Shown here: positions 3,733-18,979 of the stretch, in pieces | How the letters are laid out: every line of letters starts with the position of its first letter | How positions within the stretch are numbered: position 1 is the stretch's first letter | Origin: Terriglobia bacterium | GTDB taxonomy: Bacteria > Acidobacteriota > Terriglobia > Terriglobales > Acidobacteriaceae | Assembly: GCA_021325035.1 (NCBI GenBank) | Contig: JAJPHW010000071.1 | Location: 1 to 36,738 of the forward strand | Length of the DNA: 36,738 bases | Reading direction: 5' to 3' | Translations under genes and position numbers: made by a program | Notes under the pieces: model-generated | Databases searched by the model: none | What the model was told of the DNA's origin: nothing | Seen by the model: only the letters and a program-made list of their open reading frames with translations

Positions 3733-5082
3733 ATGTCTCCCAAGTACAATGCACGCATTGTGTTTACACTGGCGGCTTTGTTGCTGCTGGTGAGTGGCAT
3801 TGCGGCTTGCTTGACTATCCTTCGATTGACTGAAACCGAAGGATGGGTTGGTCATACGCGCGATGTGCAAGTAGCTCTTGGGCAAGTGGATGCGCAGCTC
3901 GCAGTGGCGGGACGCAATCGCTCGGCCTATCTAAGCACGAGCGATGCAAGCTACCTCAATTCTTACCACGAAGCCTTGCCGAAAATATCGGCAGCATTAA
4001 GCCATTTATGTGTGCTCACGCAAGATAACGCCGTCCAAAGGGCGCGTTGCGCCGACTTGCAGGACACTGTAAACCAAAGGCTCGCTCTCTGGAACGCCTC
4101 CATCGATTTATGGAAAGCGAGCCCTCAGGATGCAAAGGGTCAATCGGATCTGGCTATGAAAGGCGTGGGCTTTGCGCAAACCCAAACTTCGCTGGCCGAG
4201 CAAATGCAGGCAGAAGAGGCCCGGCTACTTGACTTACGAAGACAAAGCTCACGGTTGCTGTACAAATGGGCCATTGTTGTGCTGTGCACATCTTTTGTGC
4301 TTGCACTCTGGCTGCTTTCCATCCACTACCGTCTCTTAATGTCGGAACTTGAATCTCGATTATCCGCGGAGAATTCTGCCCGGGAAAGTGAACAGTCTCT
4401 TCGCTTGCTGACGCTCCGCTTGCTGCAGTTGCAGGATGAAGAACGGCGAAAATTTTCGCGGGAACTGCACGACAGCCTGGGCCAGTACTTGGTCAGCGCA
4501 AAGATGAATCTCGACATACTGGCCCGGAACTTTCCTCATGAAGCATTGCTGGCGGAGGCGATACGATCGCTAGATCAAGCGATCGCGGAGACTCGAACCA
4601 TATCGCATTTGCTGCATCCTCCACTTTTGGATGAAGTGGGCTTCGTATCTGCGGCAAAATGGTACATCGATGGCTTCGCGCAACGCAGCGGGATTGAGGT
4701 CGTTTTCGATTCGCCCGCTGAAGCCCCTCGCCTGCCCAAGCAGATCAATATCGTGCTTTTCCGGATTCTGCAAGAGAGCTTGACCAATATTCATCGCCAC
4801 GCAATGGCTAGCAAGGCGGAAATAAGGCTGAATTATTTCCCTGATCGAGTGTGTTTGACGGTACGTGATTATGGCAAGGGCATATCGCCGGATTTGTTGC
4901 GAACTTTTGTCACCAAGGGCATCAACGTCGGGGTCGGGCTCGCAGGAATGCGGGAGCGGGCTCGCGAGTTGGGAGGCGAAATCAAAATCAGCTCCACCCA
5001 CAGCGGCACTACGGTATTGATTGATATTCCCTTGCGGGCGAACGTTGCCCACGATATGTACATGAGCCAGGAGGCAGTCTAA
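3733..5082 (+). CDS. Sensor histidine kinase, CHASE3-like sensor + HisKA_3/HATPase (NarL-type partner expected)
   Basis: 449 residues. TM1 is at 10-31, a CHASE3-like helical extracytoplasmic domain spans about 35-172, and TM2 is at 178-197. A coiled linker leads to a HisKA_3 dimerisation domain with the phospho-acceptor H246 in RELHDSLGQ. The ATP-binding domain follows: N-box ILQESLTNIHRH (345-356), G1 box DYGKG (379-383) and G2 box GVGLAGMRER (400-409). This is the architecture of NarX/DegS/LiaS-type kinases that phosphorylate LuxR-type regulators. No such regulator lies next to it, so it is an orphan in this window. The ATG is preceded only by a weak purine run. The downstream MscS gene is 85 bases away and may be co-transcribed. 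Confidence 0.92.
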   Translation: MSPKYNARIVFTLAALLLLVSGIAACLTILRLTETEGWVGHTRDVQVALGQVDAQLAVAGRNRSAYLSTSDASYLNSYHEALPKISAALSHLCVLTQDNAVQRARCADLQDTVNQRLALWNASIDLWKASPQDAKGQSDLAMKGVGFAQTQTSLAEQMQAEEARLLDLRRQSSRLLYKWAIVVLCTSFVLALWLLSIHYRLLMSELESRLSAENSARESEQSLRLLTLRLLQLQDEERRKFSRELHDSLGQYLVSAKMNLDILARNFPHEALLAEAIRSLDQAIAETRTISHLLHPPLLDEVGFVSAAKWYIDGFAQRSGIEVVFDSPAEAPRLPKQINIVLFRILQESLTNIHRHAMASKAEIRLNYFPDRVCLTVRDYGKGISPDLLRTFVTKGINVGVGLAGMRERARELGGEIKISSTHSGTTVLIDIPLRANVAHDMYMSQEAV

Positions 5083-5156
5083 ACTGACACTCCCGTATTT
5101 ACCTGCCTCTGATTAGCCAACCCTACTCTCTGCGCTTCCATCGAAACACCTCACGC

Positions 5157-5170
5157 GGAGGATTCCTTTG
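5157..5170 (+). promoter_or_regulatory. Shine-Dalgarno and TTG start of the MscS gene
   Basis: GGAGG at 5157-5161 followed by six bases and TTG at 5168. No competing ATG lies nearby in frame, so this site decides the start. Confidence 0.7.
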
Positions 5171-6247
5171 ACGCCTCAACACTTTGAGCGGGCGCTTCCT
5201 TATTTTGAAGCGATTGCAGCATTAATTGCAGTTGCATGGATCGTCCGACTGATTGGGCTGCGTTATTTGCATCAATGGGAGCAACAGTCCGCAAGCCGGT
5301 TCGCTGTTGGTTTGGTGAGGCTGACCGAGAGCGTAATCGTGCCGCTTACGATATTGGGCATTACAAATATTGCAATTAATTTTCTCCCGATACCGGCAAA
5401 GATCCTGCACCTCACCAATCGCATTCTTTGGGTAACGATTTTGTGCATCTGCCTCTATTGTTGCAGCCGGATATTGCACCTCGCTCTCGATGGATGGCTC
5501 GCACACCGGCAAGTCGCGGTAACGATGCGCGAGCCGATTCATTTCATCAGCAATATCGTCTTCGCCGGCTTCGCACTCATGATTGTGCTCGACAATCTTG
5601 GAGTGTCTTTAACGGCCGTATGGACCACTCTGGGAGTGGGGAGCGTCGCAGTTGCGTTGGCCTTGCAAGACACGCTGTCTAATTTTTTTGCCGGCTTTTA
5701 TGTACACCTTGACCATCCTGTTCATGTGGGCGATTACATCAAGCTCGATAACGGCGCAGAAGGTTATGTTTCACAACTTGGTTGGCGCTCGGCGCGCATT
5801 CGTAATCTCGGAGGAAACATCATTGTTGTGCCCAACAACAAGCTGGCATCTGCCATCGTCACCAATTTTTCTTTACCGGATCCTTCGATGTCCATCACCA
5901 TCCCAGTAAATGTGAGTTACGAGAGCGATCCATCTCAAGTCGAGCGTGTTTTGTCTGACGAAGCACGCCGTGCAGTTGGCTCGGTTCCGGGTCTAGTCAC
6001 TACCGACGTCCCTTCGGTCAGCTTTATTCCAGGGTTCGGCGATTGGGCAATGCAATTCGGTGTGAACTGTAAAGTCACGACTTTTGTAGATCAATATCCC
6101 GTACAGCACGAATTGCGCAAACGGTTGCTGGCACGCCTGCGCAGCGAAGGAATCCGCATCCCCTACCCTCAGCGTGACATTCACTTTCGCATGGAGGAGG
6201 CGGACGAACTCCAACTGAGTCCGCAGTGGAAAACCAAAGCTTCTTGA
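5168..6247 (+). CDS. Mechanosensitive ion channel, MscS family
   Basis: 359 residues from a TTG start. The start is supported by GGAGG (5157-5161) six bases upstream, and no ATG lies nearby. Hydrophobic segments fall at about 15-32, 46-73, 84-108 and 124-142. The MscS pore helix follows at about 148-172, with small residues (GVGSVAVALALQDTLSNFFA), then the conserved beta-domain entry HPVHVGDYI (183-191) and VPNNKLASAIVTNFS (221-235). The cytoplasmic alpha/beta part runs to the end. MscS channels release solutes on hypo-osmotic shock. The gene lies downstream of the histidine kinase and converges on the VWFA gene, whose stop codon is six bases beyond. Confidence 0.93.
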   Translation: MTPQHFERALPYFEAIAALIAVAWIVRLIGLRYLHQWEQQSASRFAVGLVRLTESVIVPLTILGITNIAINFLPIPAKILHLTNRILWVTILCICLYCCSRILHLALDGWLAHRQVAVTMREPIHFISNIVFAGFALMIVLDNLGVSLTAVWTTLGVGSVAVALALQDTLSNFFAGFYVHLDHPVHVGDYIKLDNGAEGYVSQLGWRSARIRNLGGNIIVVPNNKLASAIVTNFSLPDPSMSITIPVNVSYESDPSQVERVLSDEARRAVGSVPGLVTTDVPSVSFIPGFGDWAMQFGVNCKVTTFVDQYPVQHELRKRLLARLRSEGIRIPYPQRDIHFRMEEADELQLSPQWKTKAS

Positions 6248-7366: not shown

Positions 7367-8401
7367 TTAAGCTGCGGTGCAATCGGGTTCCTCCTTTGGT
7401 TCGCTAGATAAGTCGACTGTTGCATAACCATTGGGATGGGTGCGATGCCAATCCCAGGCAGATTTGATGATGGCTTCGAGGCTCGTATATTGCGGCCGCC
7501 AATCGAGTTCTCGACGAATCTTCTCAGAACTCGCAACCTGAATCGCGGGGTCTCCCGCTCGTGGAGGGGCTTCAATGGCATCAATCGATTGGCCTGTTAC
7601 TTTGCGAGCCGCTTCTATCACTTCACGGACGCTAAAACAACATCCATTCCCCAGGTTGTATATCAAGGGCTGCGCACATCGATCGAGCGCGAGCAGCGCA
7701 AGCAGGTGCGCATTCGCCAGATCGCTCACGTGAATATAATCACGCACACAAGTTCCATCGGACGTCGGATAGTTTGTCCCATAAATCTGAACGGAGGGCA
7801 ACAGCCGCAATGCGACTTTGAGCACGCGCGGAATCAAATGTGTTTCCGGATCGTGCGCTTCTCCACGGTGTGCACAAGAAGATCCGGAAGCATTGAAGTA
7901 GCGCAAGCTCGCATAACGCATACCGTGAATCCGATGAAACCAGGTGAGCATTCTTTCGACGATTAACTTCGACTCGCCGTACGGGTTTGTGGGCGAAAAG
8001 GCATCCTCCTCCAGAATCGGAGTCGAAACTGGGTTGCCGAAGATGGCGGCAGTGGAGGAGAAAATCAGCCGTCGCACGCCCGCCCTCAACATGCACTCAA
8101 GTAAAACGAGAGCAGTTGCGCTGTTATTATTAAAGAAACGCTCTGGGCAGATCATTGATTCACCGGCTTCAATGAAAGCTGCGAAATGCATGACCGCATC
8201 GAATGAGCGCGATTGGAACACATAAGATAATCGGTCTTTATCGGCAAGCTCGCCTTCTACAAGCTCGATACCGGCCGGAAGCGCCGCGCGGTGCCCACCC
8301 GAGAGGTTGTCAAAAACAGTGACATGATGGCCTGCGGCCACCAGCTGATCTGCCACGACGCTGCCGATGTAGCCAGCGCCTCCTGTAACGAGAATCTTCA
8401 T
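7367..8401 (-). CDS. galE: UDP-glucose 4-epimerase
   Basis: 344 residues from the ATG ending at 8401, which places the NAD-binding motif GGAGYIG at residues 7-13 as usual for GalE; the frame's upstream extension is not protein-like. The extended short-chain dehydrogenase catalytic set is present: S116-T117, Y141 and K145 (YGESK). Typical GalE signatures also appear: DNLSGG (31-36), LRYFNASG (166-173) and DGTCVRDYIHVSDLA (215-229). The enzyme interconverts UDP-glucose and UDP-galactose in the cytoplasm and supplies sugar donors for surface glycans. Family length is about 330-345, so it is full length. It is divergent from the ABC exporter/glucan synthase genes. Confidence 0.95.
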   Translation of the reverse strand: MKILVTGGAGYIGSVVADQLVAAGHHVTVFDNLSGGHRAALPAGIELVEGELADKDRLSYVFQSRSFDAVMHFAAFIEAGESMICPERFFNNNSATALVLLECMLRAGVRRLIFSSTAAIFGNPVSTPILEEDAFSPTNPYGESKLIVERMLTWFHRIHGMRYASLRYFNASGSSCAHRGEAHDPETHLIPRVLKVALRLLPSVQIYGTNYPTSDGTCVRDYIHVSDLANAHLLALLALDRCAQPLIYNLGNGCCFSVREVIEAARKVTGQSIDAIEAPPRAGDPAIQVASSEKIRRELDWRPQYTSLEAIIKSAWDWHRTHPNGYATVDLSSEPKEEPDCTAA

Positions 8402-8712
8402 ATGCATCGTAAGAATTACACTTGAACGAATTCGCGGCTTTAAGATGCAAAAGCTGGTTTTCGCGTATCCTGCGATACTGCTTGCAGATTTTTCGTTACG
8501 GTACAGCATTTTCCATGCTTATCTAAGGTTTCATACTGATTTTCGAGATGCGTACCACCCAGACAACCGGCGTATTGAGCATGCCTTCATGCGCGATCGG
8601 AATGGCCTCACGATTGCATTTCGAATTCATGGCTTTGCCGCGCGGATAACTCCAGATGAGATTTTTGCACCTCATATCGGCACATTTGTTGGCGAGCGAG
8701 TCGGACGAGTAA
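8402..8712. other. Divergent intergenic region between galE and the ABC exporter
   Basis: 311 bases. An in-frame TAA at 8710-8712 immediately before the ATG at 8713 fixes the exporter's start. Open frames exist on both strands here (for example 8445-8756 plus), but none has a Shine-Dalgarno or recognisable protein features. The stretch should hold promoters in both directions; I could not identify them. Confidence 0.5.
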
Positions 8713-10548
8713 ATGAGCGGGCGTGTGACCGAAAAGACCACAAACTCTACTACTAGTTGGCGACAGCGGATATCTGCGCTTCGAAACGTCCCTCCAACTT
8801 TGCGAATCGTTTGGGAATCGGGGCCCGAGGTCGTCTTATTGGGGCTGATTTCTCGAATCGTTGCCTCTTTTTTGCCCATCGCACTGCTTTGGATCACCAA
8901 ACTCATCATTGACGGCATCGTGAGAGCAATTTCCACGCGACAGGGTGTGTCACCGCGTTTCTGGTGGCTGGTTGCTGCCGAGTTCGCGGTCGCTGTGGGA
9001 AATGGAGTGCTCGCCCGTTTCATCGATTACCTTGATTCTCTGTTGGCGGACAATTACACGCGGCACGTCAGCATAAAGGTGATGAAACACGCCGCCAGCT
9101 TGGACCTAATTGCTTACGAGGATCCAGTCTTTTATGACCGATTGGAACGGGCCCGCGTCCAGGCAACGGACCGCTTGGGAATGATCCAGTCCATCGGACG
9201 TCTTATTCAACAATTCACTACGGCCGTTTTGATGTCCGCTTCCATTGTGGCGTTCTCACCATGGCTTTTGGTCTTGCTGGCGGTGGGTGTGTTGCCGGCA
9301 TTTGTGGGAGAGAGCCACTTTGCATTTCTCGGCTATGCCAAAAACTTCAAGCAGACGCCGATACGCAGACAGTTGGACTACCTCCGCCTGCTGGCTGGAA
9401 GTAAAGAGGCGGCGAAAGAACTTAAGCTGTTCAGCTTGAGCAGCTACCTTACCCAGCAATTCACGGCTCTTTCCAATCAAATTTATGACGAGGATGTCAG
9501 GCTCGCGAGGCGAAAGTTTGTCGCCAGCTCGCTCTTGTCGTTACTGGGCACCATGGGTTACTACGCAGCGTACGTCTTCGTGATTTGGCGTACTCTGCTA
9601 GGCGCAATCACAATTGGAACGCTGACCTTCTTGGCGGGTGCAATTCTTCAGGCTAGTGCGAATATCCAACAGGTTTTTTCCACACTCGCAGGCATCGCCG
9701 ACCAGGCGCTCTTCCTGACAGATCTTCTGGCTTTCTTCGACATGGAACCGACCATTCGCTCCAAGCCGAATGCACTGCCTGCACCGCGAACCGTACGCCA
9801 AGGCATCGAATTCCGCGATGTGTCGTTCAAATACCCCGGTAGTGAACGGTTGGTCCTGAATCATCTGAACTTCTTTCTACACCCGGGGGAACGCGTGGCG
9901 CTCATCGGTGAAAATGGGCAAGGCAAAACCACTTTAGTCAAACTAATCACGCGCCTATATGACCCGAGTGAAGGCCAAATACTGCTCGATGGCATTGACC
10001 TCCGCGAATATGACCTGGAGAGCTTGTATCGCGAGATTGGGGTCATCTTTCAAGACTTCATGCGCTATGAAATGACTGCGCGACAAAATATTGCGACGGG
10101 GCAAATCGAGCAGATTGAAGATCTTGACAAATTGCGCAATGCCGCGGAAAAAAGCCGGTCACACGATGTGATCGCAAGGCTCCCTTTGGCCTACGAACAA
10201 ATGTTGGGACGGCGTTTCGACGGAGGAATCGATCTTTCCGGAGGAGAATGGCAAAAAGTCGCCCTTGCACGAGCGTACCTGCGTGACGCGCAGTTACTTA
10301 TTCTCGATGAGCCCACCGCAGCGCTGGATGCGCGCAGTGAATTCGAAGTATTTCAAAAATTCTCAGAACTGACCGCGGGAAAAATGGCGCTCTTTATTTC
10401 CCACCGCTTCTCCACCGTCCGCATGGCCGATCGTATCGTGGTGCTTGAGAACGGAAGGGTCGCTGAACAAGGTAGTCATCCCCAATTGGTAAATCAGCAT
10501 GGGCGATATGCGGAAATGTTCGAGATGCAGGCAGCAAGTTACCGCTAG
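8713..10548 (+). CDS. ABC exporter, fused permease and ATPase (NdvA-like by context)
   Basis: 611 residues, a half-transporter of the MsbA/NdvA type. The membrane domain (about 38-330) has around six helices. The nucleotide-binding domain has Walker A GENGQGKTT (399-407), Q-loop FQDF (446-449), signature LSGGE (508-512), Walker B LLILD (528-532) with catalytic E533, and H-loop H564. An in-frame stop directly before the ATG fixes the start. The stop codon lies 11 bases before the ATG of the GT84 synthase and overlaps its Shine-Dalgarno, so the two are one transcript. In rhizobia and Brucella, cyclic beta-1,2-glucan is exported by the ABC protein NdvA/Cgt paired with NdvB/Cgs. The same role here is inferred from position; sequence alone supports only a generic exporter. 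Confidence 0.93.
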   Translation: MSGRVTEKTTNSTTSWRQRISALRNVPPTLRIVWESGPEVVLLGLISRIVASFLPIALLWITKLIIDGIVRAISTRQGVSPRFWWLVAAEFAVAVGNGVLARFIDYLDSLLADNYTRHVSIKVMKHAASLDLIAYEDPVFYDRLERARVQATDRLGMIQSIGRLIQQFTTAVLMSASIVAFSPWLLVLLAVGVLPAFVGESHFAFLGYAKNFKQTPIRRQLDYLRLLAGSKEAAKELKLFSLSSYLTQQFTALSNQIYDEDVRLARRKFVASSLLSLLGTMGYYAAYVFVIWRTLLGAITIGTLTFLAGAILQASANIQQVFSTLAGIADQALFLTDLLAFFDMEPTIRSKPNALPAPRTVRQGIEFRDVSFKYPGSERLVLNHLNFFLHPGERVALIGENGQGKTTLVKLITRLYDPSEGQILLDGIDLREYDLESLYREIGVIFQDFMRYEMTARQNIATGQIEQIEDLDKLRNAAEKSRSHDVIARLPLAYEQMLGRRFDGGIDLSGGEWQKVALARAYLRDAQLLILDEPTAALDARSEFEVFQKFSELTAGKMALFISHRFSTVRMADRIVVLENGRVAEQGSHPQLVNQHGRYAEMFEMQAASYR

Positions 10549-10562
10549 GAGTGAGAAAGATG
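10547..10562 (+). promoter_or_regulatory. Shine-Dalgarno overlapping the exporter stop, deciding the synthase start
   Basis: AGGAG (10547-10551) overlaps the TAG stop of the exporter (10546-10548) and sits eight bases before ATG 10560. A GTG at 10551 in the same frame overlaps this Shine-Dalgarno, which favours the ATG. Confidence 0.65.
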
Positions 10563-13500
10563 CTCGAAGCAGTTGATCTCCAGGCAGAAGAAACTCGTCG
10601 GGCTCCAATGATTTCGGTGCCGCCCGCATCGGCTACGGATCCAGAATTGATCCGTAATCATGCTCGCAAATTGGCGTCCGGTCTGGCCTGGATTCCCAGC
10701 ATTCGGACCTCAGATGTTCTTTCGAAGCGGGCATCCGTGCTGACTGGTGATCTTCGCACCGCTCTTTCAAAAGCTGCTGCGTCGGACATGGTGCGCGATT
10801 CGACAGCTCTCTTGCAATCAAGTCTGCACGATGTGACGGAGAGCTTTCGTTCGTTACACACGCTACCTCACGTCAAAACTCCCGATGGATTGGTTATTCC
10901 AAGAATTCTGGCCATCGCGAAGGGCTTTATGAGAGTGTCGGATTGGCGCTGGAATGAAAGCTCGTTCTTCCTTTATATCGAGGCGTTCCAACAAACAGCT
11001 GTGCTCAATCTCGCTGAATTGCGCGCACTGAACTCGGTGCTTGTACTATTGTGGCTCGAAAATATTAGCGACAGATTGGTTAAAACAGGATGGGTCCCCG
11101 ACGCCGAACTCAAGGCATCTCTTGAAGATATCCGCCACGTAAATCAAATGGATTGGTGGGGCTTCATCGAGCCCTTTATTTTATTTGATCGATACCTGCA
11201 ACAAGACCCTGCGGGCGCCTATTTGAAGATGGAATCCGATAGCCGCAACCGTTATCGAAATGAAGTTGCCTATATTGCACAATATTCCGATGCAAGTGAG
11301 GTTGAAGTAGCGAAAGCTGCTCTGTTATTCGCTGAAGATGCTAAACGTGAACTGCACTCCGACTCCCGCATGGCAATTCGCGTCACGCACATCGGATATT
11401 ACCTTGTTGCAGAAGGTTCACAGAAGCTTTGGCAGCAGCTGTCATTTCGGCCCCCATTGAGTCGACGGGCACAGATTCTGGTGAAAGCGCACGCAGATGA
11501 TTTCTACATCCCCACTCTGGCTTTTTTGACGGTTACGCTCGCAGGTGTAGTTGCTGAACTACTCGGCATGGCGCATGTAAATTTCTGGGCATCATTGCTG
11601 ATGTTGGCGGCATTGCTTTTACCATGCTCAGAAGCTGCAGTGCAGCTTACCAACTACTTATTTACATCCTTTTTGGAACCTGCGGCTCTTCCCAAACTTG
11701 ATTTCAATCGGGGAATACCGGTGTCATGCACAAGCATGGTGGCCGTACCTGCATTGCTGCTCAATCAAGATCAAGTTCAGAGATTGGTGGATGAACTAGA
11801 AGTGCGATTCCTGGGGAATTCTGATCCAAATCTCCACTTCGCCTTGCTGACCGACCTTCCGGACTCTCTGGAGGCTCCGAAGGAAGAAGAGTCGCTTGCG
11901 GCGTTTTGCGGGGGCTTGATCGAAAAGCTCAATCTAAAATATGCCGGAGAAAAGAGAGGGTCCTTCTACCTGTTTCATCGCAAGAGACTGTACAACCCCA
12001 GGGAGCAAGCGTGGATGGGGTGGGAGCGGAAGCGCGGGAAGCTGCTGGAGTTCAATCAATACCTTCGATCCGGCAGTGTTCCGTACGCGTTGGAAGTCGG
12101 TGACCTGTCAATCATTTCCACCGTGCGTTTCGTGATTTCTCTAGACGCGGACACGTTGTTACCCAGAGAAACTGCGAAGCGACTGATCGGAACGATTGCG
12201 CATCCGCTAAACCAGGGAATCGTGGACCCCGAACGCAACATAGTCGTCTCTGGTTATGGCATCTTGCAGCCAAGGGTTGGCATTAGTGTGCAAAGCGTAG
12301 CACGCTCAAGGCTCGCTAGGATTTACTCAGGGCAAACTGGCCTCGATATTTACTCTCGGGCCGTGTCGGACGTTTATCAGGATTTGTACGGGGAAGGAAG
12401 CTATGTAGGAAAAGGAATCTATGACGTGGACATTGTCCACCGCGTTTTAGACAGACGATTCCCTAACAATCTATTACTAAGCCACGATCTCATCGAAGGC
12501 GCATATGCGCGCTCAGGTCTGGTTAGCGATATCGAAATCATCGAAGATTATCCATCCCATTACAGCGCTTATAATCGCCGCAAGCATCGGTGGTTGCGGG
12601 GCGATTGGCAAATCATCGAATGGCTGCTAGGCCGGGTTCCTGACCGTAACGCTGTGCGGGTCAACAATCCTATTTCATTGATTTCGCAATGGAAAATTCT
12701 GGATAACTTGCGGCGTGGCCTAGTTGAACCCGCCACATTTTTCCTCCTCCTCCTAGGCTGGTTTGTTCTCCCGGGCTCTCCAGTCGCATGGACCGCGGCG
12801 ACACTCACCCTATTTTTCCTCCCCGATTGGGTGCGCGCTGGCGTTCGATTCGTCCAGGCAGTCCTTCAAAGAAAACCCGCACAAGTTCGTGCTGCTTTGT
12901 CTAATCTATTGACGGCAAACATAGGATCGACTCTGACGTTGATGTTTTTGGCACATCAGATGTTGGTTTCTCTTGATGCCATGGTGCGGTCTTTGATCCG
13001 GCGTTTCTTTACTGGCAGAAAGATGCTGGAATGGGTTACCTCCGCCGAAGAGGAAATGGCTTTGACCCGCCGAACTCCTCTAGATATCTATCTGGATTGG
13101 ACGCCAGCTCTTTCTTTTGCAATAGGCGTTTTGATTTTTGCGGTTCGGCCGATTGCACTCCTTGCCGCACTGCCTGTACTCGCGCTCTGGGCCTCGAGCA
13201 AGTTTGTCTCCGTGTGGCTTAACCAACCGCCTCAGCCTTCGCACGGACCCGACACCGAAAACGACCTACTCTTGCTTCGAAGAATAGGTTTGCGCACCTG
13301 GCGATTCTTCTCTGACCATAGCAATGAAACTAATCATTGGTTGATTCCCGACAACGTACGCGAGGATCCGCAATTCGTGGACAATCGCCTTTCGCCAACC
13401 AACCTTGGCTTTTTGCTGAATGCAAGACAGGCGGCCCACAAGCTCGGTTATATAACTCTTCCCGAGTTTGTTGACTTAACTTCGAAAACGCTTGCGACCA

Positions 13501-15020
13501 TACAACGTCTGCCGAAGTTTAAGGGGCATTTCTACAATTGGTACGACAACGTTACCTTGCAACCGCTTGCACCTCCGGTGGTCTCGTCCGTGGACAGCGG
13601 TAATCTGGTAGCGTCCCTTTGGACGCTCGAACAAGGTTGTCGCGAACGCCTCCGGAATCCAGTACTTGAAGAGACGCAGTCGAATGGATTGTTGGATCAT
13701 CTTTGGGAGCTTGTGAAGCTTCGTGCATTGCCTAAACACGTGGCCAGAAATTTCGCTCGTCTTAGCCGGCAGGACTGGATTACAGCCATCGAAGAGTTCC
13801 CGCTCAAAGTATTGGAGCGCAAAAACAACCGGCCGGCGAGTACTGATGATGCCAGCTGGTTTAGGAACCAATGCAAGCTGAGAATTGAGCACTTTCGTTC
13901 AACTCTGCAATCCTATGCACCGTGGCTTGCGCCTGAATTTCGAGCACTCGAAGAAACCTTACCTGGCCTCGATTGGGGCAGGTGGACGGGGATCCCACTA
14001 AATAAGTTACCTGCATTCGTTGATGCGCTCCAAATGGAAATCGCGCTAGTTTCAGAGTTGCCGGAGTCCACAGCATTCCGCACCCCCAACCGGCGCGCTT
14101 GCCAGCAGCTTGCGGAATTGCTGCCGGACGCGCGCGCCAAGATTGTCACGCTGATTGACGGATTAGAAACCATTGCTTCCCAGGCAGGCGATTTCGCGGA
14201 AAATACCGACTTCACCTTCATGCTGCATCCACAACGCAAGCTACTATCGGTCGCCTTTGAAGTTGCTTCCCAAAAAGCGAGCGATGCCTGTTACGACCAA
14301 CTGGCATCAGAGTCCAGGATGGCGTCCTTCGTCGCGATCGCCAAGAACGACATTCCCCAAGAATCATGGTTTTCTCTAGGCCGTCAGCACAAGCTTAATA
14401 ATGGACGCATAGTTTTGCTCTCATGGGCAGGCACGATGTTCGAATACCTTATGCCCTCTCTATGGATGGAAACATATCCTGGCACTTTGCTCGATCGTGC
14501 TTGCTCTGAAGCGGTTTATGCTCAACGCAGATATGCAGAAAACAAAAGGGTGCCGTGGGGAATATCTGAATCGAGTTATGCCGATCGCGACCCCGATGGA
14601 GGATATAAATATTTTGCATTTGGCGTGCCTGATCTGGCGTTGCGAAACGAAGAAAACCTGTCGCTGGTCATCTCACCCTATTCAACTTTGCTTGCGTTGC
14701 ACCTCACGCCGACAGAAGCCTTGAAGAACTTGCGTACAATGGAGCGATCGCATTGGCTTGCCTCACTCGGCTTCTACGAGGCAGCAGACTATACGGATCC
14801 ATTAACCAAAAAGCGCGTTCGCCGCCCCACTCTCGTGAAATCCTGGATGGCCCATCATCAAGGGATGAGCTTGCTTGCGATTACAAACTTCCTGTGCGAA
14901 GGCTTCATGCGGCAATGTTTCCATAAGAATCCTAATGTGCAAGCTACGGAACTCTTGCTCCAGGAAAGGCCAGTGACTCGCGTGAATCTGCCGTCTAGAT
15001 CACGCAGACTTGCTGCATAA
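10560..15020 (+). CDS. GT84 beta-1,2-glucan-synthase-like membrane protein with glycoamylase-like domain, no GH94 module
   Basis: 1486 residues. An N-terminal helical region (1-310) and two membrane helices (about 315-370) precede a GT2/GT84-type transferase domain with DAD at 529-531 and the R-W-L-R-G-D-W stretch at 677-683, the usual acceptor-site region. More membrane helices follow at about 720-755, 780-800 and 846-887. The C-terminal half (about 920-1486) matches the glycoamylase-like cyclisation domain of cyclic beta-1,2-glucan synthases: NLGFLLNARQAA near 947, RDPDGGYKYF near 1343, and MAHHQGMSLLA near 1430 followed by VQATELLLQER. In NdvB/Cgs (about 2800 residues) the GH94 phosphorylase region follows this last motif. 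Here the protein stops some 20 residues later and a GH39 gene begins. It would polymerise UDP-glucose at the inner membrane; product and cyclisation are inferred. Confidence 0.9.
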   Translation: MLEAVDLQAEETRRAPMISVPPASATDPELIRNHARKLASGLAWIPSIRTSDVLSKRASVLTGDLRTALSKAAASDMVRDSTALLQSSLHDVTESFRSLHTLPHVKTPDGLVIPRILAIAKGFMRVSDWRWNESSFFLYIEAFQQTAVLNLAELRALNSVLVLLWLENISDRLVKTGWVPDAELKASLEDIRHVNQMDWWGFIEPFILFDRYLQQDPAGAYLKMESDSRNRYRNEVAYIAQYSDASEVEVAKAALLFAEDAKRELHSDSRMAIRVTHIGYYLVAEGSQKLWQQLSFRPPLSRRAQILVKAHADDFYIPTLAFLTVTLAGVVAELLGMAHVNFWASLLMLAALLLPCSEAAVQLTNYLFTSFLEPAALPKLDFNRGIPVSCTSMVAVPALLLNQDQVQRLVDELEVRFLGNSDPNLHFALLTDLPDSLEAPKEEESLAAFCGGLIEKLNLKYAGEKRGSFYLFHRKRLYNPREQAWMGWERKRGKLLEFNQYLRSGSVPYALEVGDLSIISTVRFVISLDADTLLPRETAKRLIGTIAHPLNQGIVDPERNIVVSGYGILQPRVGISVQSVARSRLARIYSGQTGLDIYSRAVSDVYQDLYGEGSYVGKGIYDVDIVHRVLDRRFPNNLLLSHDLIEGAYARSGLVSDIEIIEDYPSHYSAYNRRKHRWLRGDWQIIEWLLGRVPDRNAVRVNNPISLISQWKILDNLRRGLVEPATFFLLLLGWFVLPGSPVAWTAATLTLFFLPDWVRAGVRFVQAVLQRKPAQVRAALSNLLTANIGSTLTLMFLAHQMLVSLDAMVRSLIRRFFTGRKMLEWVTSAEEEMALTRRTPLDIYLDWTPALSFAIGVLIFAVRPIALLAALPVLALWASSKFVSVWLNQPPQPSHGPDTENDLLLLRRIGLRTWRFFSDHSNETNHWLIPDNVREDPQFVDNRLSPTNLGFLLNARQAAHKLGYITLPEFVDLTSKTLATIQRLPKFKGHFYNWYDNVTLQPLAPPVVSSVDSGNLVASLWTLEQGCRERLRNPVLEETQSNGLLDHLWELVKLRALPKHVARNFARLSRQDWITAIEEFPLKVLERKNNRPASTDDASWFRNQCKLRIEHFRSTLQSYAPWLAPEFRALEETLPGLDWGRWTGIPLNKLPAFVDALQMEIALVSELPESTAFRTPNRRACQQLAELLPDARAKIVTLIDGLETIASQAGDFAENTDFTFMLHPQRKLLSVAFEVASQKASDACYDQLASESRMASFVAIAKNDIPQESWFSLGRQHKLNNGRIVLLSWAGTMFEYLMPSLWMETYPGTLLDRACSEAVYAQRRYAENKRVPWGISESSYADRDPDGGYKYFAFGVPDLALRNEENLSLVISPYSTLLALHLTPTEALKNLRTMERSHWLASLGFYEAADYTDPLTKKRVRRPTLVKSWMAHHQGMSLLAITNFLCEGFMRQCFHKNPNVQATELLLQERPVTRVNLPSRSRRLAA

Positions 15021-15035
15021 CTCAGGAACCCTGCG

Positions 15036-16550
15036 ATGCTTGGGAATCGTCTGGCCTTTTCGTTTTTGCTGTGTTGGAGCTCGGCGAGTAGCCTATGTGG
15101 CGCCCAAACAGCGGGAGCAATCGTGCCGGAACAAATAAGCATTAATTTGAACGCCCCCACCGAGGAGTTCCCTCATTTTTGGGAGCAGATGTTTGGCTCA
15201 GGGCGGGCGATTTTGTCACTACGGGACGATTATCGTAGCGACTTGCGAGCTGTCCACGCTGCGACTGATTTCAAATACGTTAGATTTCATGCAATCTTCC
15301 ATGACGAAGCCGGATTATATGACGAGGATGATCGCGGACAACCGATTTATAACTTCTCCTATGTGGACCAAATTTACGACGGGCTTTTAGCGGAACACGT
15401 CAAACCATTTGTTGAGCTGAGCTTCATGCCTGCAAAATTAGCGTCCAATCCTGGCGCGTTGCATTCTTTTTGGTACAGGCCAAATACTTCTCCACCAAAA
15501 GATTGGACGAAGTGGGACGCGATGATTTTTGCTTTCGTTAAGCACCTAATTAATCGTTATGGAGACGATGAGGTCCGCTCCTGGTACTTTGAAGTTTGGA
15601 ATGAACCGAATCTTGATTTTTGGTCAGGCGAGCCGCGCGAGGAAAGCTATTGGGAGCTTTACGATCACACAGCGAAGGCTGTTAAGAACGTCGATTCCCA
15701 GTTGCGAGTCGGCGGCCCGGCAACGGCACAAGCAGCCTGGGTGGACAAATTTCTCCGCCATTGTGCCACGAACCACATTCCCGTGGATTTCGTTTCTACG
15801 CACGTCTATGGTGACGACACATCAAAAGATGTGTTTGGCGCCAGTAAAGCGATCCCTCGCCGGGAGATGGTCTGCCGCGCAGTTAAGAAGGTACATGAGC
15901 AAATTGCGACGTCATCCATGCAACACCTTCCTCTGATCTGGAGCGAGTTTAATGCCACGTATCGAAACGTTCCCGAAATAACAGACTCAACCTATATGGG
16001 ACCATGGCTTGCTGACACGATTCGGCAATGCAGTGGCATGGTTACGATGATGTCGTATTGGACATTCTCTGACGTATTTGAAGAACAAGGAGTAATAAAG
16101 GCGCCATTTTATGGCGGTTATGGATTGATGGCAGAACGAGGCATTCCGAAGCCGGCGTACAACGCATTTCTGATTCTCCACCGTCTCGGAGAAAAGCGTC
16201 TTTCCGTCCCTTCTGACTCAGTATTGGCGACAAAGCGCAGCGATGGAACCTACGTGATTGCTGTATGGAACTACGCTGAGCCGAATGAGGAAGGCGCCAC
16301 GAGATTATTTGAATTGGACTTCTTAGGTAAAGATGTGAAGCATGCCTCGATTTCCCTGGTTGATGAAGAACATGGCAATGTTCGAAGAACCTACAAGAAT
16401 ATGGGGTCGCCTCAATTTCCTACCGAAAGACAAATTAAAGACTTACAAAAAGCGGCGGAACTGCCTCAAGCAGCAAAAGCAAAGATCCAAGATAAAAGGC
16501 TGACAATTTCCCTGCCAGCCCACGGCCTCGCTGTGATCGAAATAAATTAA
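15036..16550 (+). CDS. Exported GH39-family glycosidase
   Basis: 504 residues with an N-terminal signal peptide (cleavage likely after residue 23-27) and AGGA (15024-15027) eight bases before the ATG. The (beta/alpha)8 domain carries the GH39 hallmarks: acid/base E190 in VWNEPN and nucleophile E304 in IWSEFNATY, plus FVSTHVYGDD (252-261) and YWTFSDVFEE. A C-terminal beta domain (about 390-504) follows. GH39 members are retaining beta-xylosidases, alpha-iduronidases and related enzymes; the substrate cannot be read from sequence. The gene starts 15 bases after the synthase stop and is probably its operon partner, so an oligosaccharide from that glucan is a reasonable candidate. The stop overlaps the stop of the convergent glycoamylase-like gene by four bases. 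Confidence 0.9.
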   Translation: MLGNRLAFSFLLCWSSASSLCGAQTAGAIVPEQISINLNAPTEEFPHFWEQMFGSGRAILSLRDDYRSDLRAVHAATDFKYVRFHAIFHDEAGLYDEDDRGQPIYNFSYVDQIYDGLLAEHVKPFVELSFMPAKLASNPGALHSFWYRPNTSPPKDWTKWDAMIFAFVKHLINRYGDDEVRSWYFEVWNEPNLDFWSGEPREESYWELYDHTAKAVKNVDSQLRVGGPATAQAAWVDKFLRHCATNHIPVDFVSTHVYGDDTSKDVFGASKAIPRREMVCRAVKKVHEQIATSSMQHLPLIWSEFNATYRNVPEITDSTYMGPWLADTIRQCSGMVTMMSYWTFSDVFEEQGVIKAPFYGGYGLMAERGIPKPAYNAFLILHRLGEKRLSVPSDSVLATKRSDGTYVIAVWNYAEPNEEGATRLFELDFLGKDVKHASISLVDEEHGNVRRTYKNMGSPQFPTERQIKDLQKAAELPQAAKAKIQDKRLTISLPAHGLAVIEIN

Positions 16551-17911
16551 AACAAGGGCTTTTTGGAAGGCGTGTAGGGCTGAAATCCGGCGCGCTCCAT
16601 ACCTCGAGTCGCCTCGGCATTTTTCATAAACGTCTCCCACACAAAATTCGTTCTCAAATTCTCGGCCATTAGTAATGTAATTCCTAAATCAATCCCGATG
16701 ACATCGTGGCCATACCATTGTTTAAGAGGGTTAAATGCATCCACATAACCGTACCGGCTCCATGCGACGGGATAGCGATTGCGTATGTTGTGAAGCACTC
16801 TCAACGTCGCCGTCGGGAGAAACGGAAGCGAACCCCCTGTTGCACAAGGTACGACTGTTCCATCAATCGGCCCGAGCGCCGGCGGTCCACCCCAAACGAC
16901 ATAGCCGAGTTGGGAATCAGATGAGGTTATCCCCCACAAATCATCGGAGTAATCGGGAAACTGTTTCGCTAGTTCAATACAAAACCTGCGATGCACTTCT
17001 GTCGCAATCGTCGAGTTTTCGAAGTAATCTGCGTATTTGTCCCGTTTGTTGCGAAAATCAAACCAAGCCTGCGAATACTGGTGAACGAACAGAGGAGCAA
17101 ATGAACCGATATAACGCAGCCCGTCATACTCAAATTTCACACGCTTCCATGCATTCCACACGTCCACATTTAGCGGATAGGCCGACGAACCAAGCCCCAG
17201 TAAGTACATCATCATTAGTTCGCTGTAGTAATCCCATCGATACGGCAAAAAACCGGTCTCAGGGCGCCAGCCATGAGGCAGCAAAGTTGTATCTTCCGAG
17301 AGCCATGTCCAATCAACGCGGTTGAAGATTTCGTACGATAAATTGCTGATTTCGGAATGCGCTTCGAAGTGGGCTCTGCAAGTGAGAATGCCGCAAAGAA
17401 GAATGGCCGTATCCACCGATGACACTTCCGAATCCCACACCCGTTCACCGGTATTCACATTCGCGAAGTGATACAAAAATCCGCGGTGCGTTGGAAGTTT
17501 CTTCCAAAGAAATCGAAGCGTCGCAAGAACGCGATTGCGCGCATCGTCCGTGGACACATAATGCCGATTTTCGCCTATGCATAATGCCGTCAAGCCGAAA
17601 CCCGTCGCTGCGATGCTGGCTACGATACTGTTGTCGTTGGTGTGAGCATTGCACCGATCTCTCACCAATCCCGTTTGTGGATTGGCCTGATCCCAGAAAT
17701 ATTGAAAATGCGCTTTCTCTATCTCCTCGAGTAAGCGATCATCTTCGGGAGATAGCCCTTGGACACTCGTCGTTGAGGCTTCGATGTTCTGAAAAAGTGG
17801 CGAGCCGATGGCCGCACCCGAAACGAACGGAAGATACAAACCGGCTCCGGCAATCTGCTTTAATAATTCGCGACGAGAAAGCCCTCGAGATCGCGGAGCG
17901 TAGCCGGCCAT
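16547..17911 (-). CDS. Tat-exported glycoamylase-family protein, GH144-like (possible beta-1,2-glucanase)
   Basis: 454 residues. The N-terminus has a twin-arginine signal SRRELLK (12-18) followed by a hydrophobic stretch to about 38, so export of a folded enzyme is expected. The rest fits the COG5368/PF10091 glycoamylase family, an (alpha/alpha)6 barrel: HFQYFWDQANPQTGLVRDR (68-86), SIAATGFGLTAL (99-110), PYRWDYYSELMMMYLLGLGS (223-242), DLWGITSSDS (324-333) and RYGYVDAFNP (386-395). The family includes GH144 endo-beta-1,2-glucanases and is related to the cyclisation domain of the synthase encoded convergently. I infer hydrolysis or trimming of beta-1,2-glucan in the periplasm. The active-site acids were not verified. 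Confidence 0.85.
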   Translation of the reverse strand: MAGYAPRSRGLSRRELLKQIAGAGLYLPFVSGAAIGSPLFQNIEASTTSVQGLSPEDDRLLEEIEKAHFQYFWDQANPQTGLVRDRCNAHTNDNSIVASIAATGFGLTALCIGENRHYVSTDDARNRVLATLRFLWKKLPTHRGFLYHFANVNTGERVWDSEVSSVDTAILLCGILTCRAHFEAHSEISNLSYEIFNRVDWTWLSEDTTLLPHGWRPETGFLPYRWDYYSELMMMYLLGLGSSAYPLNVDVWNAWKRVKFEYDGLRYIGSFAPLFVHQYSQAWFDFRNKRDKYADYFENSTIATEVHRRFCIELAKQFPDYSDDLWGITSSDSQLGYVVWGGPPALGPIDGTVVPCATGGSLPFLPTATLRVLHNIRNRYPVAWSRYGYVDAFNPLKQWYGHDVIGIDLGITLLMAENLRTNFVWETFMKNAEATRGMERAGFQPYTPSKKPLF

Positions 17912-17992: not shown

Positions 17993-18979
17993 GTGAAAAG
18001 ATTTGTAAACATTACCGCGATATCGGCTTCTGTGTTCGTTCTTGTCGCCGCGCTTTGGATCGCATTATCCATCGTTCGGAAACATCGACGCGTGACCATC
18101 GTGGGCGCAGTATTACGCCAAGACGCGGATCCCAACAAACAGAGCCCAATTACGGGTGTGAAAATAACGGCGATAGCTGGGGCGACTCAGAGTAATGCAA
18201 CTTCAGATCAGCTGGGGCAATTTACTCTGATCCTCCCAAAAGGCTTCCGCCGACGGCAAGCGATTACCCTTGAATTTCAGCATGGAGACTATCAGCCGCT
18301 GAAACTGGAAGATTTCATCGGAGACAAGCTGTACATCGCGAGGCTTGTCCCCCTAAATAAAAGCGCCCGCGATGATGGGAGGCAGCCGCAGCAAACAATT
18401 GCAAACGTACGTGTGCGCTATTTGGTCAAAACGACGACGACGGCAGATATCGGCAGCGCCGTCAAAACATTTGAGGTAATAAATAAAGGCAATATTCCCT
18501 GCCGAGGTGGTGCTCCTTGCTCGCCGGACGGCAAATGGAGAGCAAATATTGCGGCCACGCAGTTGGACGCAGGCGAAGGTAATGAGTTTCGCAATATTCG
18601 CGTTTCTTGCATAGCGGGGCCGTGCCCTTTCACCAAGATTGAACGCGAAGTTGTGACCGACGACGGCCGACAGTTGGATCTTAGCGCCAGAGCATGGTCA
18701 GATACGGCCACGTTCTTGATCGAAGCGGAAGTCGTGCGCACGATGGTGAGCGATCTCGTCCGCGAATCATACCCAGTGATTTTTGGACCTTCGCTAAGTT
18801 TTAGTCTTCCGGTCGCTGCTGAAGGGCCGAGCCTCGAAGCCGAAGTCAACGGCGAGCAAATAGTCTTCCCACTCAGTCCATCCTTGTCGCTTAGCTGGGG
18901 AGAATGCACGTTGAGTCACAACAAGGACCAGACTAGTGTCTACCGCTGCGAACTAAAAGTCGGATATCGTTTCAAATAA
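17993..18979 (+). CDS. Membrane-anchored protein with carboxypeptidase-regulatory-like domain
   Basis: 328 residues from a GTG start with no clear Shine-Dalgarno; no alternative start lies before the N-terminal membrane helix (about 8-29, then KHRR). Residues 35-115 form a beta-sandwich of the carboxypeptidase regulatory-like type (VTIVGAVL...PITGVKITA...A.SD.LGQFTL). The rest (130-328) is a beta-rich extracytoplasmic region with paired Cys (CRGGAPC near 165, CIAGPC near 206), which may form disulfides. It has no known catalytic motif. It starts 81 bases from the glycoamylase-like gene in the opposite direction and ends four bases from the convergent DUF5666-like gene. Function unknown. Confidence 0.8.
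   Translation: MKRFVNITAISASVFVLVAALWIALSIVRKHRRVTIVGAVLRQDADPNKQSPITGVKITAIAGATQSNATSDQLGQFTLILPKGFRRRQAITLEFQHGDYQPLKLEDFIGDKLYIARLVPLNKSARDDGRQPQQTIANVRVRYLVKTTTTADIGSAVKTFEVINKGNIPCRGGAPCSPDGKWRANIAATQLDAGEGNEFRNIRVSCIAGPCPFTKIEREVVTDDGRQLDLSARAWSDTATFLIEAEVVRTMVSDLVRESYPVIFGPSLSFSLPVAAEGPSLEAEVNGEQIVFPLSPSLSLSWGECTLSHNKDQTSVYRCELKVGYRFK

Follow-up and report, generated by a model that had tools for sequence, protein, structure and literature searches.

The DNA analysed here, referred to throughout as the window, is a stretch of 36,738 nucleotides that makes up contig C207 of the draft genome of a Terriglobia bacterium (3.86 Mb, 232 contigs, 97.95% complete). Among its genes is a pair encoding an ABC exporter and a predicted beta-1,2-glucan synthase without GH94, followed by two genes for glycoside hydrolases and one for a small protein:

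8713..10548, + strand: ABC exporter of 611 aa, a half transporter of the ABCB/MsbA type and the first of the gene pair; PF00005 121 bits, with P-gp and MsbA relatives in the PDB
10560..15020, + strand: predicted GH94-less beta-1,2-glucan synthase, 1486 aa from the ATG (1489 aa from the GTG at 10551)
10551..13235, + strand: N-terminal domain and GT84 glycosyltransferase with membrane helices (aa 1-895); AlphaFold2 pLDDT 88.4, Z 33.0 to 8rf0
12351..12353, + strand: Tyr601, which aligns with Tyr694 of A. tumefaciens Cgs, the primer that is glycosylated in that enzyme
13236..15017, + strand: GH189 cyclase domain (aa 896-1489), complete up to the C terminus; AlphaFold2 pLDDT 93.2, Z 62.9 to 8wy1
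15036..16550, + strand: GH39 glycoside hydrolase, 504 aa, with a signal-like N terminus (judged by eye); PF01229 335 bits
16547..17911, - strand: GH144-type beta-1,2-glucanase, 454 aa; PF10091 222 bits
17993..18979, + strand: small protein with a hydrophobic stretch at the N terminus; CarboxypepD_reg only below cut-off, no confident Pfam family

The synthase reading frame is open throughout 10551-15020 on the + strand, and its ATG lies 11 bp downstream of the end of the exporter gene. An AGGAG at 10547-10551 stands 8 nt ahead of the ATG at 10560 and overlaps the ABC gene stop. This spacing makes the ATG a likelier start than the GTG at 10551, and the overlap suggests translational coupling: the exporter and the synthase probably share one operon for translation. 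Synthase residue numbers nevertheless count from the GTG, which adds three residues. Further upstream, at 3733-6247 and some 2.5-5 kb from the gene pair, lie genes for a histidine kinase with CHASE3 and for a mechanosensitive channel of the MscS type, neighbours that would suit an osmotic role of the glucan. A GalE UDP-glucose 4-epimerase gene (7367-8509, opposite strand; TIGR01179, 396 bits) adjoins the exporter gene; the compared loci gave only one GalE match, at 25%.

The synthase matches A. tumefaciens Cgs with 697 bits, mainly over query residues 191-1039 and 1205-1478, and identity to the structurally solved Cgs enzymes is 28-34% within the aligned parts. The AlphaFold2 model of residues 1-895 (pLDDT 88.4) aligns with Cgs 8rf0 over 819 residues (Z 33.0), and the fold and the aligned residues place this part in family GT84. 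In the C-terminal part, PF10091 matches at residues 1249-1461, and 8wy1, the cyclization domain of T. italicus, scores 341 bits; the model of residues 896-1489 (pLDDT 93.2) superimposes on 8wy1 with Z 62.9 (562 residues, rmsd 2.9 Å) and on 8rf0 residues 982-1528 with Z 48.8. Sequence and fold agree with the cyclization domain of TiCGS, and the two catalytic Glu are present, which assigns this part to GH189. By alignment, the counterparts of A. tumefaciens D624, D626, D739 and Y694 are D532, D534, D646 and Y601, and those of T. italicus E1356, E1442 and H1536 are E1254, E1340 and H1435. The roles of these residues are taken from excerpts of PMC10901819 and PMC10834661; Y694 is described as the glycosylated primer (PMC10901819).

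After the motif VQATELLLQER the protein continues for 16 residues and ends. The phosphorylase part of A. tumefaciens Cgs is reported to begin at residue 1536 (PMC10901819) and the match to 8rf0 reaches residue 1528, so the synthase ends at the cyclase/GH94 boundary. On the model, then, the cyclase domain is complete and the protein terminates where GH94 would start. The sequence-only reading had proposed a GT84 transferase and a cyclase domain without GH94, with a stop about 20 residues after the motif, and had asked that the transferase assignment be checked by alignment. All of this holds: the 697-bit match to Cgs keeps the GT residues, the cyclase fold is that of 8wy1 (Z 62.9), the stop lies at the domain boundary and the genome holds no GH94 match, as described below.

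Homologues were sought in two sets of genomes chosen independently of this gene, 150 relatives and 396 members of the phylum. Among the matches listed, 66 of the 150 relatives carry a CGS homologue, 50 of a short type and 16 of a long type, a sorting that is our own, made from open-frame lengths and fetched loci, and in which the short type takes in whole, broken and partial genes. Many of the 50 short-type genomes hold partial genes (G086 has only an N-terminal piece), and G083, counted as short-type, has in addition a long-type piece that is truncated where its contig ends. Within the phylum set at least 105 of the 396 genomes match; beyond the class to which the window belongs, only G269 and G501 show a complete short form among the matches listed, G265 has the remains of a long gene, and pieces at contig ends, such as those in G210 and G380, cannot be assigned to a type. 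In G269, a single contig, a short synthase linked to an exporter gene occurs together with a full-length copy of the long type (L159, L165).

A larger collection was assembled from matches to the window protein, a selection that makes it a non-random sample. A genome-contig scan confirmed 285 relatives, of which the best 80 are all Acidobacteriota by title. After removal of 17 duplicate loci, of 10 loci in which the CGS gene is broken or truncated at a contig end, and of the misfiled long genes L133 and L145, 102 distinct acidobacterial short loci were left, 61 from the scan and 41 from other genomes. Short proteins with their own 5' end (n = 93) have a median length of 1500 aa (range 1159-1586), whereas complete long acidobacterial proteins extend another 1308-1358 residues beyond the last aligned position. 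Broken copies also occur: the short synthase of L144 is broken into three open frames, that of L166 is present as a late-starting frame, and L175 contains the remains of a long synthase. Cgs homologues occur on plasmids as well, with 132 matching records, 38 of them typed conjugative, from Pantoea, Paracoccus, Escherichia, Klebsiella and others. Ten of these were inspected: eight have annotated CDS of about 2450-2880 aa, L155 is unannotated with a 2888-aa ORF, and L154, with a 2367-aa ORF, was excluded from the trees. Nine of the ten proteins align across the GH94 half.

Active-site residues are invariant across both types. The nine mapped positions, namely the three GT aspartates (D532, D534 and D646), R680 and W681 of the RW motif, the primer Tyr601, the cyclase glutamates E1254 and E1340 and the support histidine H1435, are kept in 103/103 short and 24/24 long proteins; Tyr601, the putative primer, is thus a tyrosine in every one of them.

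The GH94 part, by comparison, has left no trace in the sequences searched. A profile search of the 97.95%-complete source genome gave no PF17167 or PF06165 match, and a tblastn search that used three GH94 regions as queries (E up to 1e-3) had no hit in the window and none in the 102 true short loci, 94 of which include at least 1 kb of downstream sequence. Among loci first filed as short, only L133 and L145 gave matches; both are long genes, the one broken and the other cut. The gene that follows the synthase is, as had been proposed, a GH39 gene (PF01229, 335 bits) and not a broken GH94. With a protein that ends at the domain boundary and a genome without a GH94 match, the synthase can be classed as GH94-less, and the observation of an intact GT84-GH189 protein without GH94 is confirmed. 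A GH94 protein encoded elsewhere and acting in trans, which had been named as the finding that would undo this picture, was considered and rejected as the rule: PF17167 exceeds its cut-off in just 6/50 short-type genomes, compared with 16/16 long-type genomes (among the matches listed), and the source genome has none. The two strong matches of the six are chitobiose-phosphorylase-like (G077, 1188 bits) and cellobiose-phosphorylase-like (G088, 1134 bits), while the other four score only 45-90 bits.

The strongest feature of the short type, absent from the sequence-only reading, is an exporter gene fixed directly upstream. An ABC homologue occupies this position, on the same strand and with a median gap of 9 bp, at 92 of the 93 short loci whose upstream sequence reaches 300 bp or more; the single exception is L166, in which the ABC gene lies 908 bp upstream of the late-beginning synthase frame. 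The 15 long loci that extend 300 bp or more upstream all lack an ABC homologue at this position. Genome-wide, an ABC homologue at 60% identity or more is found in 49/50 short-type, 0/16 long-type and 1/84 CGS-free genomes (among the best 8 candidates per genome), and in the one CGS-free case, G044, the contig stops inside the ABC gene. Two long-type genomes, G115 and G122, encode exporter homologues at 54% and 49% identity, distant from their long Cgs; that of G115 (L167, 6620-10126) lies beside a GH144 homologue. These two genomes speak against a plain exchange of GH94 for the exporter. The exporter falls below the NdvA/ChvA/Cgt cut-offs (190 bits against 585 for TIGR01192 and 240 against 733 for NF010178), and its top NCBIfam score, for MsbA, is likewise below cut-off (292 against 602).

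Further clues come from phylogenetic analysis. In a FastTree phylogeny (aa 190-1475; 85 rows, 1288 columns) a branch with support 100 separates the window and 61 short proteins from all other rows; one of the 61, L045, is cut by a contig end at the domain boundary. Trees built from the GT part or the cyclase part separately (55 rows each) both place the window and 30 short proteins on one side, again with support 100. When T. italicus CGS was added to an IQ-TREE analysis of the cyclase it fell on the long side, so that in the unrooted cyclase tree the short clade stands apart from T. italicus CGS and from the acidobacterial and proteobacterial GH94-bearing enzymes. Rooting with GH144 nests the short clade inside the long ones; we do not rely on this root, because its stem measures 9.5 changes per column. 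In these trees the short synthases are shown to be monophyletic among the sequences compared, and the question whether homologues of this size form their own clade can be answered positively, for proteins of about 1400-1590 aa and with support 100.

Two separate losses of GH94 were considered, since the order f2 holds both short (L130/L131) and long (L123/L124) proteins, and rejected: the short ones group together with support 100 in the GT and cyclase trees. All four proteins lack most of the GH189-specific helical insertion, which measures 18 residues in L130 and 9 in L123 and L124 compared with 180 in the window, and the loss of this insertion within one order is apparently independent in the two types. 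A segment of the N-terminal domain (q170-q195) was examined as a possible partner of GH94. It spans 17-41 residues in 96/96 measurable short proteins, compared with 100-113 in 19/22 long ones and 40-42 in the other three. Those three (L121, L149 and L150) are short there yet have the whole C-terminal half, and a perfect partnership was therefore rejected.

The window's GH144-type protein has as its best PDB relatives the Xanthomonas beta-1,2-glucanase 8xul (224 bits) and CpSGL 5gzh/5gzk (159 bits), and keeps the general-acid Glu column, placing it in GH144. Its N terminus, judged by eye, looks Tat-like. A separate GH144-type gene, called as PF10091 above 150 bits, is present in 48/50 short-type, 2/16 long-type and 24/84 CGS-free genomes (among the matches listed). 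The difference between short and long types is significant (Fisher p 2e-10) by a test that ignores the relatedness of the genomes. At the loci themselves, 33 of the 63 short loci that extend 5 kb on a side have a GH144 gene and 30 do not, and 14 of the 63 have a GH39 homologue. Six loci repeat the window order ABC-CGS-GH39-GH144, and the family of the small protein (17993-18979) recurs near GH144 in 20 short loci.

Taken together, these results point to a pathway in which the GT84 domain would prime itself on Tyr601 and then extend a beta-1,2-glucan using UDP-glucose; the GH189 domain would free the chain as a ring, its own length preference providing a first size limit; the ABC exporter would carry the product out; and the exported GH144 endo-beta-1,2-glucanase, perhaps with GH39, would trim or recycle the glucan outside the membrane. 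Size would then be set after or beside synthesis, without a fused phosphorylase. We regard this explanation, taken as a whole, as probable. It builds on direct observations (the architecture, the monophyly among the compared sequences, the intact active-site residues and the fixed genetic partner), and priming, elongation and ring closure are proposed because the relevant residues are conserved.

Published work helps to define what the loss of GH94 might entail. In A. tumefaciens Cgs, removal of the C-terminal half abolished function, while knocking out just the active site of GH94 changed little (excerpts of PMC10901819). The C-terminal half is therefore a scaffold in that enzyme, which is a difficulty for the proposed pathway: the short clade must make up for the missing half in some other way. 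The earlier suggestion that the enzyme makes glucans of uncontrolled length does not follow, since the isolated T. italicus cyclase domain makes rings of DP 17-26 by ESI/MS, with TLC suggesting larger ones too (PMC10834661). A Cgs carrying a deletion within the phosphorylase domain gave larger rings in E. coli, on a TLC reading, and these were mostly retained in the cell when the native exporter was present (PMC11071196). The natural short enzyme may likewise need a transporter that accepts its product, and the dedicated exporter fixed next to it would fit such a need. E. coli also has a separate beta-1,2-glucanase, OpgD, which has been suggested to adjust glucan length (PMC11842490). The earlier proposal that size control is left to separate hydrolases gains circumstantial support, namely the association of GH144 with the short type (48/50 genomes compared with 2/16).

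This association can be read in another way. GH144 may serve the uptake or recycling of beta-1,2-glucan, whether the cell's own or foreign, leaving size to be set only by the cyclase and the exporter. The 24/84 CGS-free genomes with GH144-type genes allow such a catabolic meaning, and just 33/63 loci have GH144 near the synthase. Against this, GH144 distinguishes short-type from long-type genomes (48/50 and 2/16), its N terminus looks exported, and in G115 the exporter homologue sits beside GH144 and away from the long Cgs, linking this type of exporter to GH144. Recycling in this sense is a real possibility, if not the one we favour.

A linear product, also raised in the sequence-only reading, is unlikely. 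The GH94 surface is proposed to orient the chain for cyclization in A. tumefaciens (PMC10901819), and without such positioning GH189 might merely cut or transfer; the nucleophile, the acid/base and the support His are, however, invariant in 103/103 short proteins, the isolated T. italicus domain cyclises unaided (PMC10834661), and the Cgs with the deletion in its phosphorylase part still gives a cyclic product in E. coli by its authors' TLC reading (PMC11071196).

Slightly less likely still is that GT84 has drifted to another polymer and that the locus makes an exopolysaccharide other than beta-1,2-glucan. GH39 homologues neighbour the synthase at 14/63 loci, and to our knowledge GH39 is not a family of beta-1,2-glucan enzymes; identity to solved Cgs, moreover, is only 28-34% in the aligned parts. 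The GT residues and the primer Tyr are conserved, however, and beta-1,2-glucan is the described substrate of the two families to which the fused GH189 domain and the partner GH144 belong (PMC12102758, in excerpt). An assembly error or a recent frameshift can be dismissed, as the sequence-only reading had anticipated: the window genome is a draft of 232 contigs, but 102 distinct loci end alike (0 to 43 residues beyond the last aligned position), those of the single-contig genomes G017 and G046 among them, six loci repeat the ABC-CGS-GH39-GH144 order, and tblastn found no GH94 remnants in the window or the short loci.

Returning to the pathway of self-priming synthase, exporter and exported hydrolase, a broader evolutionary reading is tentative and, to our minds, rather doubtful: the synthase clade may retain an architecture predating the GH94 fusion, within a second, GH94-independent beta-1,2-glucan pathway in which length control has moved to an ABC exporter inherited along with the synthase and to a GH144 enzyme that is exported. 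The older architecture is suggested by the separate position of the clade in the cyclase tree, whereas the GH144-rooted tree, with its long stem, would place the clade within the long enzymes.

The literature searched, mostly open-access, yielded no description of a GH94-less Cgs. The GH94 active-site residue is stated to be conserved in known Cgs homologues (PMC10901819, in the excerpted text), a statement that the short clade qualifies. New here are the exporter fixed upstream of the short synthase and the genome-wide association with GH144. In soil Acidobacteria, a GH94-less synthase with an exporter and, usually, a glucan-cutting enzyme amounts to a natural test of how glucan size is set in bacteria. 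Because the short clade is natural and widespread, it offers a direct test of the role of the phosphorylase half, as the product sizes of short and long enzymes can be compared, and it allows one to ask what replaces the scaffold and whether the exporter or the hydrolase takes over size control. The short synthase could also provide a half-size enzyme for the production of cyclic glucans.

Comparison with known systems places the locus more precisely. With the Cgs enzymes of A. tumefaciens (8rf0) and T. italicus (TiCGS) the short synthase shares the N-terminal domain, GT84 with its membrane part, the primer Tyr and GH189 with both catalytic Glu. It differs in lacking the C-terminal GH94/RFL half, in the brief segment of its N-terminal domain (found in three long proteins too) and in the ABC exporter gene upstream. 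The engineered Cgstr expressed in E. coli (PMC11071196, in excerpt) is alike in combining GT84 and cyclase with a deleted phosphorylase domain, and it makes rings; Cgstr is, however, artificial and its larger product is mostly kept in the cell, whereas the natural enzyme adjoins a dedicated exporter gene. NdvA, ChvA and Cgt are likewise ABC half exporters for a glucan synthase, although the exporter described here scores below their NCBIfam cut-offs. The gene at 16547-17911 is a relative, known here by its sequence, of the GH144 beta-1,2-glucanases CpSGL and XcSGL. Finally, OpgH with OpgG and OpgD (PMC11842490, in excerpt) resembles the proposed division of labour between a synthase and a separate exported beta-1,2-glucanase, but the E. 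coli hydrolase family (GH186) is unrelated and the product linear, so that the likeness is one of analogy only.
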